This document shows, one piece after another, positions 1 through 8,849 of a stretch of DNA of 64,000 bases; position 1 is the stretch's first letter, and every line of letters starts with the position of its first letter. Source of the stretch: Candidatus Rifleibacteriota bacterium (lineage in GTDB: Bacteria > Muiribacteriota > Ozemobacteria > Ozemobacterales > Ozemobacteraceae). The stretch lies in contig JADFZL010000002.1 of the NCBI GenBank assembly GCA_015232575.1, positions 124,001-188,000 of the forward strand, in the 5' to 3' direction. The translations under genes were made by a program, and so were the position numbers. The notes under the pieces are model-generated. The model was not told the origin of the DNA. It searched no databases and saw nothing but the letters and a program-made list of their open reading frames with translations.

Positions 1-528
1 GACCGCCCGCTTGATGCAGAAAAACTTATGAAAAATATCCGCGTTGCTTTGAATTCATCAGATGTTCAGGAAGCGGTGAAAATTTCACGTCAGGAACTTC
101 ATCCACTGGGAAGTGTTTTATACGCTGGTCTGACACATCTTGGCCTTCCAAGGCAGAATATGCTTGACCACATGAGAGAAGAAGCGTTGAGGCAATTGAG
201 AAATATTTCCAGACACAATTCGATTCTTTCGACCATTGCAGGTGTGTCACCCCTTCTTGGGCTGACTGGTACAATCCTTGGCATGATTACATCATTTTCA
301 GTTATCTCGACTATTGGAATCGGCGATCCTACTGCTCTGGCAGGCGGAATTTCAGAAGCGCTTTACACAACTGCAGCCGGGCTTTTTGTTGGAATTCCAT
401 CACTGGTAGTTTATAACTGGTGCGAAAACAAAGTTGCACAATTTGAAGATGCGGTTGAATACTGTTCTCTTGACCTTGCCAATTCTCTTCCGCCCAGGGA
501 CAGCAGCTATGAAAAAGCTTCTTCCTGA
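1..528 (+). CDS. exbB: ExbB/TolQ/MotA-family proton channel, 5' partial
   Basis: The reading frame is open from the first base, so the true start lies left of the window; the ATG at 28 is internal. The visible part has the family's typical C-terminal half: a cytoplasmic stretch, then two hydrophobic segments around the motif SPLLGLTGTILGMITSF and a second helix near TTAAGLFVGIPSLVVYNW. In this family the subunit forms the inner-membrane proton channel that powers TonB or TolA. The next genes encode ExbD and TonB, overlapping in order, which favours ExbB over TolQ or MotA. At least one N-terminal membrane helix is missing from the visible part. Confidence 0.9.
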   Translation, partial: DRPLDAEKLMKNIRVALNSSDVQEAVKISRQELHPLGSVLYAGLTHLGLPRQNMLDHMREEALRQLRNISRHNSILSTIAGVSPLLGLTGTILGMITSFSVISTIGIGDPTALAGGISEALYTTAAGLFVGIPSLVVYNWCENKVAQFEDAVEYCSLDLANSLPPRDSSYEKASS

Positions 529-934
529 AAGAAAGCGGCCACAACCGCAGATTGTCCTGACGAATCTGATTGATGTCATTCTTATGCTGGTGTTTTTTTT
601 CATGATAACAAGCTCATTTGCAAAAGAAAAAAACCGTATTCCGATAGAATTGCCAGCAGCTTCAAGTTCAGGTATTTCACAGGGCGAAATATTATCTGTT
701 GTTATCAATAACGATGGCGTTGCGTTTGTAAATTCTATTGAGTTGAATGTCGATGCATTGAAACAGAAAGTCGCCGAATATATTGCTTCAAATCAGGGAA
801 CTGATCCGCAGATTCTTGTTGAAGCAGATGTTTCAACTGATTATGGAAAAGTAGTTTCACTACTTGATGAAATAAGGATGGCCGGAGGGAAGAACATTGG
901 CCTTTCTACGAAAAATAAGTCTGAAGTTAGATAG
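509..934 (+). CDS. exbD: ExbD/TolR biopolymer transport protein
   Basis: A protein of 141 residues with a short cytoplasmic N-terminus, one membrane helix (LIDVILMLVFFFMITSSF) and a periplasmic ExbD/TolR domain. The Asp inside the helix (the D of LIDV) is the conserved proton-binding residue of the family. The ATG at 509 is preferred over an upstream in-frame start because it gives the normal short, basic N-terminus (MKKLLPERKRPQPQ) and has an AGGGA-type ribosome site just upstream. It overlaps the end of exbB by 20 bases, so the two are probably translated together. Confidence 0.9.
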   Translation: MKKLLPERKRPQPQIVLTNLIDVILMLVFFFMITSSFAKEKNRIPIELPAASSSGISQGEILSVVINNDGVAFVNSIELNVDALKQKVAEYIASNQGTDPQILVEADVSTDYGKVVSLLDEIRMAGGKNIGLSTKNKSEVR

Positions 935-1865
935 TTTTCTGCCTGAATGTTCAGATGTACGCGAGAAAGAAGAGTTCCAGCTTTCTCTGTTGGTTCATTT
1001 CGCTTTCTTCTTACTTCTGAGTGTGTTTTTTGCTGTTTTTCATGTCGATCATACGATTATTCCAAAAAACATAGCACCCGTAAGACTTATATCCGGAAGC
1101 GGATTCAATCAGAATAATTCTGAATCTCTTCCATTCCGAAAATCTTTGTTTTCAGATGTTTCAAAGTTTAACACTGAAAAAAATACGGCATCTGCAAAGA
1201 ATTCCAGACAAAAAAAGAACGTTCTCAAGAAAAAAACTCTGAAAAAAACAGATGTAAAAAAGGCTGTTACAAAATCACCTGTTGTTGCAACCAAAAAATC
1301 TGTTAAAAGTGAAACTCAACCTGCAGAGACCAAAGAACCGGAAAAATCTGTTATCAAGACAGCTAAATTCGAAACTGATGCTGTGACTCCATTTGCACTG
1401 AATGAGCCGGTAAAAAATGATATTGAATCACTTGTTGATGATACCCTTGGAGAGCCACTCAGACGCGAACCAGAAACAACTGAAACAGTTTCACAGAGTG
1501 AAAACCCGGGGAAATCTGTTGAGAAAAGCATTGGAACTGACGGAGATGAATTTCAGGTTGTAGATCTGGAATCCTTTGGCGATCAGAATAAAAGTTTCGC
1601 TCCGCCTTCTATCGTTTCAAAAGTTATCCCTGATTACCCGGAATGGGCAAGGAAAAAGGGAATTAAAGGTCAGGCGACATACAAAGTCATGATCATGGAA
1701 TCTGGAACTGTTGGAGATGTTATTCATCTGTCATCTACAGTTGATTCCAGGATGGCTGTTCTCGGAGCTCAGGCTTTGCGAAGATGGCTTTTCACGCCAG
1801 TACTTGATGGCGGCGAACCTGTCAGAACCTGGGTGAAAATTGCAGTGCACTTTCAACTTAAATAG
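897..1865 (+). CDS. tonB: TonB energy-transducing protein
   Basis: A protein of 322 residues: a cytoplasmic N-terminus, a membrane anchor at about 31-50, a long Lys/Glu/Thr-rich periplasmic spacer (about 95-230) and a C-terminal TonB domain with the hallmark IPDYPEWARKKGIKGQ stretch. It carries proton-motive energy from ExbB/ExbD to outer-membrane transporters. The start is an unusual TTG at 897, supported by a strong GGAGGG at 884-889 seven bases upstream. It overlaps exbD by 38 bases. No TonB-dependent receptor is encoded in the window, so the substrate cannot be inferred. It is convergent with the cyclase gene, with no clear terminator in the 53-base gap. Confidence 0.88.
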   Translation: MAFLRKISLKLDSFLPECSDVREKEEFQLSLLVHFAFFLLLSVFFAVFHVDHTIIPKNIAPVRLISGSGFNQNNSESLPFRKSLFSDVSKFNTEKNTASAKNSRQKKNVLKKKTLKKTDVKKAVTKSPVVATKKSVKSETQPAETKEPEKSVIKTAKFETDAVTPFALNEPVKNDIESLVDDTLGEPLRREPETTETVSQSENPGKSVEKSIGTDGDEFQVVDLESFGDQNKSFAPPSIVSKVIPDYPEWARKKGIKGQATYKVMIMESGTVGDVIHLSSTVDSRMAVLGAQALRRWLFTPVLDGGEPVRTWVKIAVHFQLK

Positions 1866-1918: not shown

Positions 1919-4900
1919 TTATCGATGAGAATCGGCTAGAAGTGAATAGGCTGTGACTGTGCGGGTTTTACCTTTAATTGGTGGAAGGTCAAGCAGACTC
2001 ACTGTTTGTGTATTTTCGAAGGTGTTGATTTTTTTTGCTGATTCATAAGTGAGCGTTTCCATGACAATTCCACCGATTTCTCTTTCGCCTTCTGAAGCAA
2101 TTTGTCCGCCTCTGCTGAGTTTAAATGATAATTCACCCAGTCTGGATGCCAGGTTTACCGTATCTCCGATTACCGTGTAATCTTCGCGAGCTTCGCCGGT
2201 GCCTATTATTCCGGCTAATACCGGTCCAGTGACTATCCCGGCTCCGATAGGTTGTTTGCTGTTTTCGGAAATTTCGAAGGCGGTTTTACAGATTTCTGAA
2301 GCAGCAATTATTGCTGAAGAACTGGCTTTTTCAATTCCTCCTTGAGTGCTGTGAGGAAACGTAGCAAGAACTTTATCTCCGATAAATTTGTCTATTTCTC
2401 CGCCATGATTTCTGATAATTTTTGATACTTTTTCAAGGTGCCTGTTCAGTAGAAAAATCAGTTTTTCAGGAGACATTCCTGATATGACTTTTTTGAAATT
2501 CGCGACTCCGATGAACATGACTGTCGTTTGAATCAGTTCACCCTTTCTTGCTGCTTCCTCACGATCTTTGTCTCTTGCTGCGCTCCGTACCGATTCAGAA
2601 ACGAATTTCATCAGCAATTTACCTTCAGCAACTGATTTAGCAACAGAATTATATGCAATTGCCAATTGAGAAAACTCACCGCCGTATTTCGGATCAAGTC
2701 TGATGGAGAAGTCTTTCTGCATAAATCTTTTTAATGCAAAAACAAGTTCAGAAACCGGAAGAATAAATCCTGATGCTGCGTTGAAAGCCAAAAGAATTGA
2801 AAAAAGAAGTAGAACAGCAAGAAGACTTTTCTGAGTTTCTGTTCCGGAAGACGCTTCTGAAATGAATTTTCCAATGGATGTGGTGTATGAATAGATAAGG
2901 CTTTCATTTAATAATCCGGGAATTGTTGTTTTTAATATTTCATCATCATTATTTTCGGATATCATTTTGAAGGCAGGCATATTTGATTCGTTTGCGATAA
3001 GCGATAATTCATGCTCATCGGAAGGTTTTTTCTCATAGAGGTCTTCAAGATCAACGGTTCTATCGAGTTTTTCCAGTTCTGTTTTCCAGAATGGGAACTT
3101 GTATGAAATGTTCGGAAAAGCTCTCAGGAAGGCTTTAACATGTCTTCCCGGAGCTAAAAGATTGTGCTTTTCAATTTGAATGAAATTGTTTTTGTGTATT
3201 GAATTGCTTTTAAGGGAAAGGCGAAAAAGAAATAGAGGTTTTCCATTTTCATTGATGTAATAACCTAAAATATAATTTTTCTGATCGTCAAGAGGAAGTG
3301 ATGGTGAAAATAAATTTGGTGAGTGTCCTGATTCCGCAATTTCCTCAGGCGATGAAACAAATAGAAGCAGTTTATTCATTTCTTCAACGCCATAGTCAAT
3401 AAAAGTACTTGGGTCAAAAGTGTTTTTCAGAGTTCCCGGTTCAGAATATGATGCACCAAGCCCTGAAAGACTTTTGAAACCGGTACTCTGAATGAACTGA
3501 AATTGTATGTCATTTTCTCTTGATTGCCCAGGTTCAAGATCGACTGAAAAGCCTTCCGGTCCGGCAAGCGTGTTTCGACCGATTAATATTCCACGATTGT
3601 AAAAATAATTTATTAAACTTGAACTTAATTCGTCGGTTAGTTTTTTTCGATCTTTTTTTGATGCCTTTCTCAGCCTGTGTATCTTGTCGAGTAAAAATTT
3701 TGAATTCTCATGTTTAAATATGTTTGCCATTGTATACGAAAGAAACATATCTTCAAATTTCTCTGCATTGGAAGATGTCTGCTGAATTCGTTTTTCTTCT
3801 TTATATTGTGTTAAAAAAGTTCTTTCAATATTGCCTCTTTCAAGTGAAAAATATGCACATACAAGAGTCGGGATGATTGAAAAAACAAAAGCACCAGCCA
3901 TCTGATATTTCAGAGAAATTTTAACTCCACTTTTATTGCCAAGCATTCTTTTTGCAGCCGAAATTCCTGTAAATATCCAGATAAATGAAATAATAATCAA
4001 GAATTTTCTTTGTTGCGAAAGAGTTTTATCGTAGTTGGACGATCTTTCTCTGATTGCAGAAATTACTTCCCCATTATCTGTTTTAAGAGATTTTGAAATC
4101 AATTTGTTGGAAATCGGGCTTAAAGCAGCTGAATTGCCTGGGAATTCTGTTGCATCATCGTAGAGAATGGTGCATTTGCTATTTTTGAAATTACTTATCA
4201 AAGCTTTTTTCCGATTTTTGCCCGTCATATCTTCCGGATGTAAAAAAAGAAGAATGATTCCCGGCTTTCCGTCGGGAAGTAGAATGGAAGACCAGAAAAA
4301 ATATACCGGATGATCTGAAAGATCAAGCAACAGGAATTGATCAAGTGATTTTTTTACAATTTCATCCGGAGTTAATTTGAGGTTGTAAAGAATTGTTTTT
4401 TTCAATTCCCAGGTTGAACTTTGCCTGAGAAGATTATTATGAAAAACTATGCTTAATAATCTCAGGAATTTTTTATCGAAATCTGTGTGAGATTGATTGT
4501 TTAAAATCAATTTTGGTTCTGATGAAATTGATGTCAGACACCAATCAAGTGATGGGAAAGTCTTTCTGCATTGTAAAAGTTTATTATTAATGCTTTTAAC
4601 ATCATTTTCGCTAATGTTTTCAATTTTTCCAGTGGGAATTTTGAAATTATCGAAGACGGAAGAAATAAATCTTTTGAAAAAAATTGATATTTGTACAGAT
4701 GGATCTTTTGAACGGGCAGCATGATTTAAATCTTGAATGAGTTGTCGCTCTATTGTTTCTGAAATACCTGATTTATAAGAGTTTTCAGAGAATTTAAAAG
4801 AGAAAAGCATAAAAAAAAGCGGAAGAAAAAGAAAAATGGCAGTGAAAAACCAGCGCCGATAATTAGTTTGTTTCTTATCAATTTTATTTTCAGAATGTGC

Positions 4901-7900
4901 ATAGGGCAGCAGATTTTCTTCTTGTGTTAATTTCTCCTGAAATATTTGATTTTCAATATTTGATGCAGATGATGTATTGTCTTCAGAATCTTCTGATTTT
5001 TTTGATTCGTTAGATTCTGATTCTTTTGATTTATAAGAATCTGCAATTGTATCAACTTTCAATTCAAAACAACCTGGTGAGTCATAAATTTCTTCAAATG
5101 AATAGTGGCGGTTAACTATTTCTGCAATTCTTGTGGAACAGACTATTCCGGAATGTCTGCCTTTTTTTGATGCGGCTTCGAGCTCATTGGCAATTTTCAT
5201 CGTATCGCCGAGTACAGAAAAATCCAGACGAGTGTCTTTGTCACCCATTACACCAGTTATAACTTCTCCAATGTCAATTCCAACGCCGATTTTATATGTG
5301 AATAGTCCAGATTTTTCTCTGGCTCTGTTGATTTCATGATGCGATTTCATCATCATTTGAGCCGCTTTAATCGCCCTTATAGCAATATGTTCGTGTTTTT
5401 CTTCATGAGCGTGGCAGAAGATTGCCTGAATAGCGTCACCAATAAATCGGTCAACTGTTCCGCCATTATCATTAATAGCTTTTGTCATGGCTTTAAGATG
5501 AACATTTATCATGTCAAAAACTTCCGGTGGAGAATGGGCTTCAGAAAGTGTAGTAAAGCTTCTGACATCAGAAACAAGAGTGACCAGAATTCTTCTTGTA
5601 CCTGTAACAGCATTATCCAGGTCTCCATCAGAAACCACTTTTAGAACATCTGGCGGGACGAATTTGCTCATTATCTGTCTTTCAGAAAGCCAACCTCGCA
5701 TAATGTCAAGGTTTTTACACGCAAACCCAAGTTCATCCTGTCTTTCTTCGATCAATCTTGTACTCAGATCACCTTTTTCGATTTTTTTCAGGCTGTTGAT
5801 CATTCCGGTAAGAGGCTTTACTAGCCAATTTGAAAGAATTAATGCAAATATTCCGGTAAAAAGTGCTGACAATATTATACCGGAATAGATCCAGAGAACT
5901 TCTTTCTGAATGCTTTTCATGATCGGCTCAAGTGAAGCACCGGCTATTATTGAAATTCCCTCATTGGGTCTGCTTATGATAATTCTTCTTTCTCCGAAAC
6001 GTTCATTTTTGAACTCACCTCTTACCTCTCTATTCAGATTTATCAACGTTTGTGAATTTCCTGCTTGGCATAAAATTTCATATTTCTCATCTTTTGATCT
6101 TACAAGTGCAAGAAAGAAATCTGGATCTGAATAGTTCAGAGTCTTAACATACTTACTCATTGAATGAATAACAGCGTTATTCAGATTAGAAATAATATGC
6201 AGCAGATACGTAAGATTTCCTTTTGATTGTACAAGATTGGTATATCGCATACTGGAGCTGTTAGTCTGTCCCATGCGTTGAATCGTGTCTGGTTTTGCTT
6301 GAAGTGAGTCGTTTTTTTCCAGAACACCAAGCTTTGTGATAAAACTTGCATCTTTATTCTCATTTACAGTTTTCGTACCTTTAAAAAGGGCCTTATCAAG
6401 ATATTCCATTGAGAATGCGTGGTAAATAAATTCGGTCAGCTTTCTGGAATCTGGATTAACAGTATCAGCAAATTGTACAAATTGCTTTTCATCTTCGCTG
6501 AAAAGCATAGCAGCATCAAGCTGGAAGTTTTGTTTTTCAAGTCTTTCTTCAATGCTCATTTTTAAATATGACTCAAAATTCTTATCGTATTTTAATTTTT
6601 CTGAATAGTAAGTGTTTTCAAGTTCTTTGGATAGCCAATTAGTTATTTCTCTTCCTTTATTGTGAAATCTGGAATTTACTATTGATGCTTCAGCTTCAAC
6701 TTTTCTGATTTCAGCAGTCAGTTTTTTGTCGAGTGCTGCTTTGAGATTTACAGAAAGATCATATTCCAGGCGTTTTCCTGAGTTTAAAATTATTATAAAA
6801 ACCGGAAGAGTAAGGCTCAAAAACCATAAAAAAAGTGATTGTCTGATGGTAAGATTTATGGATATTCTATTAGTTAGTTTTGAAATTGAGAAAAATGTCC
6901 AGAAGACGATGAAGAGTAATAAGTAGATATTTTTCCAGATTTCAATCTGAGTCAGCTTATCCGAAGGTTTTTTGGAAAACAGAATGCCGAGTTCGGCCAG
7001 TCGCGGATCCAGTACACAGGGAATTGCCCTGAAGTGTTTTGTCGAATAATTTTTAAACTCGGGGAAATTGATAATTCCAAGATGGCTTGATTTGTCTGGT
7101 GGAGTAAGCTTAAGAAAAGCAGCAATTTCTGATAAAAGTGATCTGGTTTCTGAGCATCTTATTTTTGGATGAAAAGCAGGCCGATATTTTTTTGAAACTG
7201 CTTTTTCCATCGGGAGAAAGGCTGGAAAAATGTTTTTACTTTTAAATATGTTTTCCCAGTTCGATAAGATTGATTTTTTTATTTGTGTACGGTGGTCTTT
7301 TTCAATAGGGAAGATCATGAGGAAGGCACCGCATATTTTACCCTTTCTTTCCAGAGTGTTCCATATTGCCATTGCAAAATTTGAGTGATAAAAGGCGTAA
7401 AATGCTTTTCCTCTTGTTTCATTTGAGAAAATATTTCTAGTTATTCCAGGACCAAATAATGTTTTTATCCGCTGAAAAACAATAGGATCGTCAAGGGAGT
7501 TTTCCTTTCTGGTCGAACTCAGCGAAAGATCTTTGAGAAGGCGTGACAAAATTGTTTTGTATTCACTGCTGTATCCTGGTTGGTTAATCAGGTTAAAAGA
7601 GATGCCATCATTCGAATATGATGCCCAGATGACAGGTTTAACAAAATCTTTTACTTGTGCATTTTTCAATGCACTTGAAAAAATAAAATCAATTTTGGAT
7701 GTCGAAGTGGCTGAGGAAAATGATCTGCTGTATTTTTCTGCAGTGATTTCTGCCCAGAAGGAAAATTTACTGGAATTTCGGAAAATATCAGAAAATTTTC
7801 CAGCTTTTTCGGTCCACGCTTCTTCAGAGGTTTTCCGCGTTAGTTCTCTTTCTGATTTTGAGTCAATGATAAGAATAAGCAGTGGAATGACGCTTAGAGC

Positions 7901-7948
7901 AAAAGATAATGCAAATGAAAAAAATTTATTGGTTTTACTTGAAGACAT
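1919..7948 (-). CDS. Tandem membrane class III adenylyl cyclase, C1/C2-like pseudoheterodimer
   Basis: A 2009-residue protein made of two similar halves. Each half has a membrane helix, an extracytoplasmic region, two further helices flanking a short cytoplasmic stretch, a second extracytoplasmic region, a helix with a HAMP-like segment, and a class III nucleotide cyclase domain. Approximate positions are helices at 9-28, 338-356, 370-391, 684-705, 1033-1052, 1315-1330, 1346-1368 and 1708-1730, and cyclase domains at 785-960 and 1806-1995. The first domain keeps both metal-binding aspartates (D794, D838) but has R834, S911, K918 and E922 at the substrate-Lys, Asp/Thr, Asn and Arg positions. 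The second has G1814 at the first metal site but keeps K1854, D1858, T1925, N1932 and R1936. Together they should build one complete ATP site, as the C1 and C2 halves of animal membrane cyclases do. A Ser/Glu/Asp-rich linker (about 975-1000) joins the halves. The gene follows the RsbW-like gene after 4 bases. cAMP production is inferred from the Lys/Thr pair. Confidence 0.9.
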   Translation of the reverse strand: MSSSKTNKFFSFALSFALSVIPLLILIIDSKSERELTRKTSEEAWTEKAGKFSDIFRNSSKFSFWAEITAEKYSRSFSSATSTSKIDFIFSSALKNAQVKDFVKPVIWASYSNDGISFNLINQPGYSSEYKTILSRLLKDLSLSSTRKENSLDDPIVFQRIKTLFGPGITRNIFSNETRGKAFYAFYHSNFAMAIWNTLERKGKICGAFLMIFPIEKDHRTQIKKSILSNWENIFKSKNIFPAFLPMEKAVSKKYRPAFHPKIRCSETRSLLSEIAAFLKLTPPDKSSHLGIINFPEFKNYSTKHFRAIPCVLDPRLAELGILFSKKPSDKLTQIEIWKNIYLLLFIVFWTFFSISKLTNRISINLTIRQSLFLWFLSLTLPVFIIILNSGKRLEYDLSVNLKAALDKKLTAEIRKVEAEASIVNSRFHNKGREITNWLSKELENTYYSEKLKYDKNFESYLKMSIEERLEKQNFQLDAAMLFSEDEKQFVQFADTVNPDSRKLTEFIYHAFSMEYLDKALFKGTKTVNENKDASFITKLGVLEKNDSLQAKPDTIQRMGQTNSSSMRYTNLVQSKGNLTYLLHIISNLNNAVIHSMSKYVKTLNYSDPDFFLALVRSKDEKYEILCQAGNSQTLINLNREVRGEFKNERFGERRIIISRPNEGISIIAGASLEPIMKSIQKEVLWIYSGIILSALFTGIFALILSNWLVKPLTGMINSLKKIEKGDLSTRLIEERQDELGFACKNLDIMRGWLSERQIMSKFVPPDVLKVVSDGDLDNAVTGTRRILVTLVSDVRSFTTLSEAHSPPEVFDMINVHLKAMTKAINDNGGTVDRFIGDAIQAIFCHAHEEKHEHIAIRAIKAAQMMMKSHHEINRAREKSGLFTYKIGVGIDIGEVITGVMGDKDTRLDFSVLGDTMKIANELEAASKKGRHSGIVCSTRIAEIVNRHYSFEEIYDSPGCFELKVDTIADSYKSKESESNESKKSEDSEDNTSSASNIENQIFQEKLTQEENLLPYAHSENKIDKKQTNYRRWFFTAIFLFLPLFFMLFSFKFSENSYKSGISETIERQLIQDLNHAARSKDPSVQISIFFKRFISSVFDNFKIPTGKIENISENDVKSINNKLLQCRKTFPSLDWCLTSISSEPKLILNNQSHTDFDKKFLRLLSIVFHNNLLRQSSTWELKKTILYNLKLTPDEIVKKSLDQFLLLDLSDHPVYFFWSSILLPDGKPGIILLFLHPEDMTGKNRKKALISNFKNSKCTILYDDATEFPGNSAALSPISNKLISKSLKTDNGEVISAIRERSSNYDKTLSQQRKFLIIISFIWIFTGISAAKRMLGNKSGVKISLKYQMAGAFVFSIIPTLVCAYFSLERGNIERTFLTQYKEEKRIQQTSSNAEKFEDMFLSYTMANIFKHENSKFLLDKIHRLRKASKKDRKKLTDELSSSLINYFYNRGILIGRNTLAGPEGFSVDLEPGQSRENDIQFQFIQSTGFKSLSGLGASYSEPGTLKNTFDPSTFIDYGVEEMNKLLLFVSSPEEIAESGHSPNLFSPSLPLDDQKNYILGYYINENGKPLFLFRLSLKSNSIHKNNFIQIEKHNLLAPGRHVKAFLRAFPNISYKFPFWKTELEKLDRTVDLEDLYEKKPSDEHELSLIANESNMPAFKMISENNDDEILKTTIPGLLNESLIYSYTTSIGKFISEASSGTETQKSLLAVLLLFSILLAFNAASGFILPVSELVFALKRFMQKDFSIRLDPKYGGEFSQLAIAYNSVAKSVAEGKLLMKFVSESVRSAARDKDREEAARKGELIQTTVMFIGVANFKKVISGMSPEKLIFLLNRHLEKVSKIIRNHGGEIDKFIGDKVLATFPHSTQGGIEKASSSAIIAASEICKTAFEISENSKQPIGAGIVTGPVLAGIIGTGEAREDYTVIGDTVNLASRLGELSFKLSRGGQIASEGEREIGGIVMETLTYESAKKINTFENTQTVSLLDLPPIKGKTRTVTAYSLLADSHR

Positions 7949-7952
7949 CAGA

Positions 7953-8849
7953 TTACAGAACTTTTCTCATTCTTACCATGTTTCCGGTTCCCAGGAATTC
8001 CAGTTCATTGAACTGAAAACGGGCAAGAAAAATGCCTCTGCCATGAGCTAAAAGCATCTGTTCAGGGCTCAGAGGGTCGGGAAGATTTTTCCAGTCAAAT
8101 CCCTTGCCTTCATCTATTACAACCCATTCGCAGAAAGTGTCAGTCTGAGAGAAATTTATTTCTGTTTTGCGAGATCCAAATACAGGGTGTTTTTTTCTTT
8201 CGTTGAAAAGATTTTCGATAGAATCACCCGATGAATCAAGAGCTGCTGTTTTTTCCTGATAGGATATTTCAAGGTTTCCGTGTTCAATAGCGTTGGTAAT
8301 GAGTTCTGTTAAGCCCAGACGTATTTCCATTCGGGCTTTTGGTGAGAAAGCATTGTGAGTTGCCCGAACAAGAAATTCTGTAATATGAGGAATCATTTCA
8401 ATGTCGTTGTCCAGCCTTATTCTGAATTGCTGGTGGCTGATCACATTCAGAATTTCTATTCCAGTTCGTCTTGCAATAACAATTGCGGTATATTTTTTCA
8501 ACAAACCGGACATTTCTTCTTCATTAACATTTTGAGTGAAAAAATTGCTTGCTTTATTTTTCATTGCTGCAAGAATAAGATCCTGGCGTCCGGCAGGAAG
8601 GGCAACGAGAACGATAATCTGAGGATCAATCTGCCGGATTTCTCCGACTATCGAGAGGTCTTCAGGTTTAAGAACTGGAAGATCAAGAATTAATATTTCT
8701 GGTTTTTTTGAACCTATTTTCTGTAAATAATCAGAAATTGTTGCAACTGAAAGAAGAATTTGTGTTGATTGAGATACTGCCAGAACTCCAAGAAGGTTGC
8801 GGGTTTCTTTCCTGGAAGATATCAATAGAGTTCTTATTGCAGAAAACAT
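7953..8849 (-). CDS. Degenerate receiver fused to RsbW-like histidine-kinase-type ATPase
   Basis: A protein of 298 residues. Residues 1-120 look like a CheY-type receiver: D56 in the ILILDLP strand matches the phosphoacceptor, but the N-terminal acidic pair is replaced by Ser-Ser (residues 11-12) and the conserved C-terminal Lys is absent. Residues 140-298 form a HATPase_c domain of the anti-sigma/RsbW type, with an N-box (E182, N186), a G1 box (D246-EGKGF) and a G2 box (HGRGIFL from 269). There is no histidine-phosphotransfer domain, so it is not a classical sensor kinase. RsbW relatives bind or phosphorylate STAS-type antagonists or sigma factors. It lies 4 bases upstream of the tandem cyclase and probably shares its transcript, so it may control, or be controlled by, that pathway; no direct evidence shows this. 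Confidence 0.82.
   Translation of the reverse strand: MFSAIRTLLISSRKETRNLLGVLAVSQSTQILLSVATISDYLQKIGSKKPEILILDLPVLKPEDLSIVGEIRQIDPQIIVLVALPAGRQDLILAAMKNKASNFFTQNVNEEEMSGLLKKYTAIVIARRTGIEILNVISHQQFRIRLDNDIEMIPHITEFLVRATHNAFSPKARMEIRLGLTELITNAIEHGNLEISYQEKTAALDSSGDSIENLFNERKKHPVFGSRKTEINFSQTDTFCEWVVIDEGKGFDWKNLPDPLSPEQMLLAHGRGIFLARFQFNELEFLGTGNMVRMRKVL

Follow-up and report, generated by a model that had tools for sequence, protein, structure and literature searches.

Homodimerisation of class III cyclases has been considered to set bacteria fundamentally apart from eukaryotes (Beltz 2016, PMC4821796), and a later review stated that no fused dimer of class III cyclases is known from bacteria, dated the fusion to early eukaryotes and asked what advantage it brings (Schultz 2022, PMC9552081). 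In the open-access literature, no report was found that deals with bacterial class III cyclases of two domains or with cyclases of Riflebacteria. Here, we describe a gene (1919..7948, minus strand) in a 64,000-nucleotide stretch of contig JADFZL010000002.1 (GCA_015232575.1, Candidatus Rifleibacteriota), hereafter the window, to which positions refer unless a locus is named. The gene is predicted to encode a fused two-half class III adenylyl cyclase of 2009 amino acids (aa), with two HAMP and two Guanylate_cyc stretches (Pfam), and its reading frame starts with ATG and contains no internal stops. It is very likely that the product is a membrane receptor adenylyl cyclase whose first (C1) and second (C2) catalytic domains share one composite site, and that it arose in Riflebacteria independently of animals; it is termed class IIIb-like because Thr, not Asp, occupies the adenine position.

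The roles assigned to the catalytic residues follow established class III enzymology, and the residues were placed by alignment with the Spirulina CyaC fragment and with mammalian C1 and C2 domains, the mammalian sequences having been checked against PDB chains. PF00211 scored above the cut-off on both catalytic domains, C1 (aa ~786-963, 5060..5593, minus strand; delimited by alignments, class III fold by Foldseek) and C2 (aa ~1805-2004, 1937..2536, minus strand; delimited by Pfam and alignments). Read in the order metal, Lys, metal, Asp/Thr, Asn and Arg, the six catalytic columns are D,R,D,S,K,E in C1 (D794, R834, D838, S911, K918, E922) and G,K,D,T,N,R in C2 (G1814, K1854, D1858, T1925, N1932, R1936), and C2 also keeps an IKGK motif (K1994). 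All six positions are present only when C1 and C2 are combined; neither domain has the full set that a homodimer carries in each of its domains. The arrangement is that of a pseudoheterodimer, i.e. one chain with two homologous halves, the metal ligands in C1 and Lys, Asn and Arg in C2. D1858, the second metal Asp, is present in the window C2, although this column is free in the family described below (E in 35, D in 32 and G in 3 of 70 proteins). The Asp at the C2 adenine position that marks class IIIa is replaced by T1925 here and by Thr/Ser in 70/70 relatives. The ten residues on which the earlier note had based its reading of this gene (those listed above save S911, D1858 and K1994) all lie at the positions it gave, and its metal, Lys, Asn and Arg assignments hold, as the residues fall in the expected columns against both CyaC and mammalian C1/C2.

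In a scan of contigs from GTDB, 71 loci were recovered, almost all of them under the labels Riflebacteria or Ozemobacter, and the search for homologues with the same split that the earlier note had proposed yielded a set of 70 fused genes, with both domains scored, from the window genome (six genes) and 20 other named Riflebacteria assemblies. C1 is N-terminal in 70/70 of these proteins. Both metal Asp residues are present in all 70 C1 domains, with Asn in three, Arg in six and both in one; Lys, Thr/Ser, Asn and Arg are each present in 70/70 C2 domains, and the first metal Asp in none (0/70). The same split and order was found in 69/70, the exception being L106, which has a C1 with Asn and Arg, and Ser at the Thr position. 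Furthermore, when 58 fused proteins were aligned, both C1 Asp residues and the C2 Lys, Asn and Arg were among the invariant columns. This residue pattern is far beyond chance, and the apparent purifying selection on exactly those residues that one composite site would need is the strongest functional evidence.

The same columns bear on the nature of the substrate. The specificity of bacterial class III cyclases is sometimes misread from sequence, and one close PDB sequence match, the cyanobacterial Cya2 (2w01), is described as a guanylyl cyclase. That the fused protein is itself a guanylyl, and not an adenylyl, cyclase is nevertheless very improbable: Lys together with Thr/Ser, present in C2 in 70/70 cases, is the ATP-type pair of class IIIb, and guanylyl cyclases usually carry Glu and Cys.

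A sequencing artefact joining two genes was ruled out by the 70 open-frame fused genes in 21 genomes. The 'Methylomirabilis' and 'Erysipelotrichia' labels of two genomes (G040 and G041) look wrong; their match count and best E-value are the same as those of G006 and G025 of the window's family. Fused cyclases were also observed in tandem head-to-tail arrays of two or three (L084, 223-18200; L073, L100, L080, L098, L101, L103 and L106), which suggests recent expansion by duplication. Among 533 cyclase-bearing plasmid records, none had one place covering most of the query, and the plasmid matches listed were single domains or, in Rhizobium, two separate genes; uniqueness to Riflebacteria is not claimed because sampling beyond the phylum consisted of plasmids.

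The window genome (7.05 Mb, 54 contigs) contains 43 PF00211 matches and ten paired systems, of which six are fused (the window gene and L031-L035) and four consist of two adjacent genes (L036-L039, encoding proteins of 925-999 aa), with complementary losses in 10/10. In three of the four two-gene pairs (L036, L038 and L039) the partner genes overlap by ATGA, suggesting that their translation is coupled and that the partners are made in equal amounts. All 18 single-domain cyclases scored in this genome retain the full catalytic set (16 DKDTNR, 2 DKDDNR), and residue loss is therefore specific to the paired systems. The genome additionally encodes 17 cyclic nucleotide-binding domain matches above the Pfam cut-off, which are possible receivers of cyclic AMP (cAMP).

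Class III cyclases were present in 40/40 Riflebacteria genomes searched, the window genome included, with 8 to >60 PF00211 matches each. The fused profile was also run against 16 genomes of seven other families; all 16 gave matches, and ten regions were then read. No frame of ~2000 aa was among the matches listed, which, as far as these go, suggests that only the window's own family carries fused forms. Adjacent gene pairs were found in three of the other families. In family f7 the C2 gene precedes the C1 gene, for example at L142 (GKKTNR + DRDLAY), with three C2/C1 pairs in a row, and family f2 has one pair (L150, KKDTNR + DKDSSR). The pairs of family f8 (L146 and L147, genomes G036 and G039) read DKDTNR + DKGTNR, one partner being complete and the other lacking the second metal Asp only, and look like an early stage of the same loss process. 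In the tree, the two partners of a pair are each other's closest relatives in f8 (support 100/100) and also in f2 (100/99), and the asymmetry thus began more than once. The C1-first order reported in the earlier note holds for every fused protein but does not extend to the gene pairs L037, L038, L094 and L110 and those of family f7, in which the C2 gene comes first.

Each domain alone lacks essential residues, and the losses might be read as decay that left a catalytically dead or weak sensor scaffold, which signals otherwise or inhibits complete cyclases. Decay, however, would neither leave precisely these complementary residues unchanged across 70 genes nor recur as a complementary set in several lineages, and we regard such a scaffold as very unlikely.

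The six catalytic columns were left out of tree building. In the resulting trees, some two-gene C1 domains fall into one group with the fused C1 domains (97, and 98/93), and some two-gene C2 domains into one with the fused C2 domains (95, and 100/99). Since two-gene forms branch beside or inside the fused groups, the divergence of C1 and C2 predates fusion; because two-gene forms nest among the fused C2 domains, either two fusions or one fusion with later splitting is possible. The two-gene pair L075 (5988-8957 and 9053-12079) is nested among fused proteins and may be a fused gene that was later split again. L094 and L110 are C2-first pairs in which His takes the first metal position of C2, and their C2 domains did not join the main C2 group of the first tree; they possibly represent another independent origin, although the likelihood was better when they were held inside that group.

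The mammalian C1 and C2 domains group (100) with L001, a single-domain cyclase of the window genome (DKDDNR, with Asp at the adenine position). This cyclase, located at G000:C23:6895-7431, is of the class IIIa type. A joint constraint uniting each of the two domains with its animal counterpart (C1 with C1, C2 with C2), as common ancestry with the class IIIa pair would demand, was rejected (approximately unbiased (AU) test, p 7.6e-7, log-likelihood difference 131), and a separate-origins tree was as good as the free tree. With this rejection, the likeness of VMFIGVANF to the mammalian C2 that the earlier note had pointed out fails as a sign of shared ancestry of the split. A single ancestral C1/C2 duplication common to the bacterial proteins and the animal membrane cyclases, whether inherited vertically or transferred, would account for the shared order and residue split, and constraints joining C2 only or C1 only were not rejected. 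It is nonetheless extremely improbable in view of the joint constraint, the grouping of the animal domains with L001 instead, the 4+4 transmembrane (TM) helices with large sensor domains and HAMP as opposed to 6+6 TM, and the two-gene forms of the same phylum, which offer a local route to fusion. The fuller history is probable: independent evolution in Riflebacteria, half-site loss more than once in gene pairs (f1/f7, f2 and f8, the last of these still early in the process), and fusion with multi-copy expansion in one family, giving an asymmetric receptor that feeds up to four distinct extracytoplasmic inputs into one site.

Each half of the window cyclase (~1000 aa) follows the order TM, sensor 1, TM-TM, sensor 2, TM, HAMP and cyclase, and all parts lie on the minus strand. 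Hydropathy predicts eight TM helices (aa 10-28, 335-353, 370-388, 687-705, 1033-1051, 1315-1333, 1351-1369 and 1712-1730). In the first half, extracytoplasmic domains 1 (aa ~32-333, 6950..7855) and 2 (aa ~391-686, 5891..6778) were delimited on the AlphaFold model and have no Pfam match; their counterparts in the second half (aa ~1053-1313, 4010..4792, and aa ~1371-1711, 2816..3838, respectively) were assigned by homology to them. HAMP 1 (aa 705-751, 5696..5836) was taken from Pfam, and HAMP 2 (aa ~1728-1775, 2624..2767) corresponds to the second Pfam HAMP stretch, its approximate limits being set by reading the sequence. In profile comparisons the halves are homologous over 857 columns (E 4e-73) with the sensor domains aligned in register; domain 1 matched domain 1 across the halves at 97.5% (E 5e-12) and domain 2 matched domain 2 at 97.8% (E 1e-12), and relatedness between domain 1 and domain 2 was not detectable. 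As the halves are homologous along their length, the whole receptor was duplicated, and not the catalytic domain alone. The extracytoplasmic domains belonged to no Pfam family in 24 members searched; by impression, their secondary structure looks Cache-like.

The AlphaFold model of window aa 1-971 (predicted local distance difference test (pLDDT) 86, predicted TM-score (pTM) 0.69) contains the two extracytoplasmic alpha/beta domains, HAMP and a class III fold, and the C1 fold matches CyaC, Cya2 and CyaB in Foldseek. Both catalytic domains were modelled together in the relative L048 (aa 692-1880, HAMP1-C1-...-HAMP2-C2; pLDDT 82, pTM 0.62), whose seven best PDB matches are the mammalian adenylyl cyclases (ACs) AC5, AC9 and AC8. 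The TMq of this model is 0.34 for AC9 (~400 residue equivalents) and 0.15 for the single-domain CyaB (~180), a gap as expected if the two predicted domains superpose together, the interface being read from TM-scores. The proposal that the C1 and C2 losses are complementary in the mammalian order and would make one composite site is thus supported by the 70 genes, the two-gene forms and the AC5/AC8/AC9 match. Alternatively, two fused chains could dimerise crosswise, each C1 meeting the C2 of its partner, in which case a dimer would contain two such sites and the complex four receptor halves. Pairing across chains is obligatory in the two-gene forms, and HAMP and class III domains commonly act as dimers of chains; yet the TM-scores of L048 place C1 and C2 of the one chain modelled in an AC9-like arrangement, and we consider pairing between chains unlikely, though not negligible.

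Several observations weigh against a composite within-chain site of independent origin. The global root-mean-square deviation of the L048 match is large (27 A) and its C1:C2 interface is deduced from TM-scores, and this relative is 28% identical to the window protein over the modelled span. Asn and Arg are kept by 3/70 and 6/70 C1 domains, respectively. Furthermore, the AU test did not reject the tree constraints in which C2 only (p 0.38) or C1 only (p 0.17) was united with the animal domains, and the mammalian branches are long.

In the composite within-chain arrangement, C1 and C2 would pair to form one catalytic site acting on the presumed substrate ATP, C1 giving both metal-binding Asp residues and C2 the Lys and Thr (adenine) together with the Asn and Arg (transition state), while the pseudo-symmetric second site would be without the needed residues and should be dead. 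Putative ligands may be sensed through up to four extracytoplasmic inputs, which would act via paired HAMP helices on the C1:C2 geometry and so on cAMP output. The enzyme has probably evolved from two adjacent, coupled genes through complementary losses and, finally, fusion. A direct precedent for such a site is given by chimeras of Rv1625c carrying D300A and R376A, which regain activity when co-expressed (PMC4821796).

Upstream of the cyclase lies a gene of 298 aa (7953..8849, minus strand) with an RsbW/SpoIIAB-like HATPase_c_2 C-terminus, which ends 4 bp before the cyclase ATG and is probably its operon partner. No Pfam match covers the N-terminus of its product, which by its sequence resembles a degenerate receiver domain. 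ExbB, ExbD and TonB genes are located at 1-1865 (plus strand) and point toward the cyclase gene from its 3' side. None of seven neighbour proteins, the upstream HATPase and TonB genes included, was found near other family members in a search in which the positive control worked, and a conserved operon with these genes was thereby ruled out.

The layout assigned by textbooks to animal adenylyl cyclases thus appears in Riflebacteria, a phylum of uncultured bacteria. The phylum has complete single cyclases, fused forms and two-gene heteromers in which loss is either early or full, often side by side in a single genome. As these forms coexist, how a homodimer becomes a pseudoheterodimer, and why fusion occurs, can be tested directly in soluble bacterial domains. 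Genome surveys should not count such half-site domains as dead cyclases.

Among described systems, the CyaC of Spirulina and CyaB of Pseudomonas (class IIIb) are the nearest bacterial enzymes in sequence and fold type and share the Lys/Thr adenine residues, but they are complete single domains that form symmetric homodimers with two sites. Rv1625c/Cya of Mycobacterium tuberculosis is likewise a bacterial membrane class III cyclase, in which complementary mutants rebuild one site (PMC4821796); unlike the window cyclase, it is a class IIIa homodimer of complete domains, one per chain, on a 6-TM anchor. Animal soluble guanylyl cyclase alpha/beta and the fungal heterodimeric rhodopsin-cyclases are heteromeric class III enzymes from separate genes, as are the Riflebacteria pairs, from which they differ in being eukaryotic and having other sensors, and the soluble guanylyl cyclase makes cGMP. 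With mammalian AC1-9 the window cyclase shares two membrane modules and two cyclase domains per chain in the order module-C1-module-C2, metals in C1 with Lys, adenine residue, Asn and Arg in C2, and the best structural matches; AC5 C1 reads D,K,D,D,T,H and AC2 C2 reads S,K,S,D,N,R, and the window split is the same save that the second Asp of C2 is kept. It differs from AC1-9 in its independent origin (joint AU test), in Thr for Asp at the adenine position and in its modules, each with four TM helices, two ~300-aa extracytoplasmic domains and HAMP in place of a 6-TM bundle. The best reading is that the window cyclase would work like an animal membrane adenylyl cyclase, while standing outside that family by ancestry, membrane design and adenine residue.

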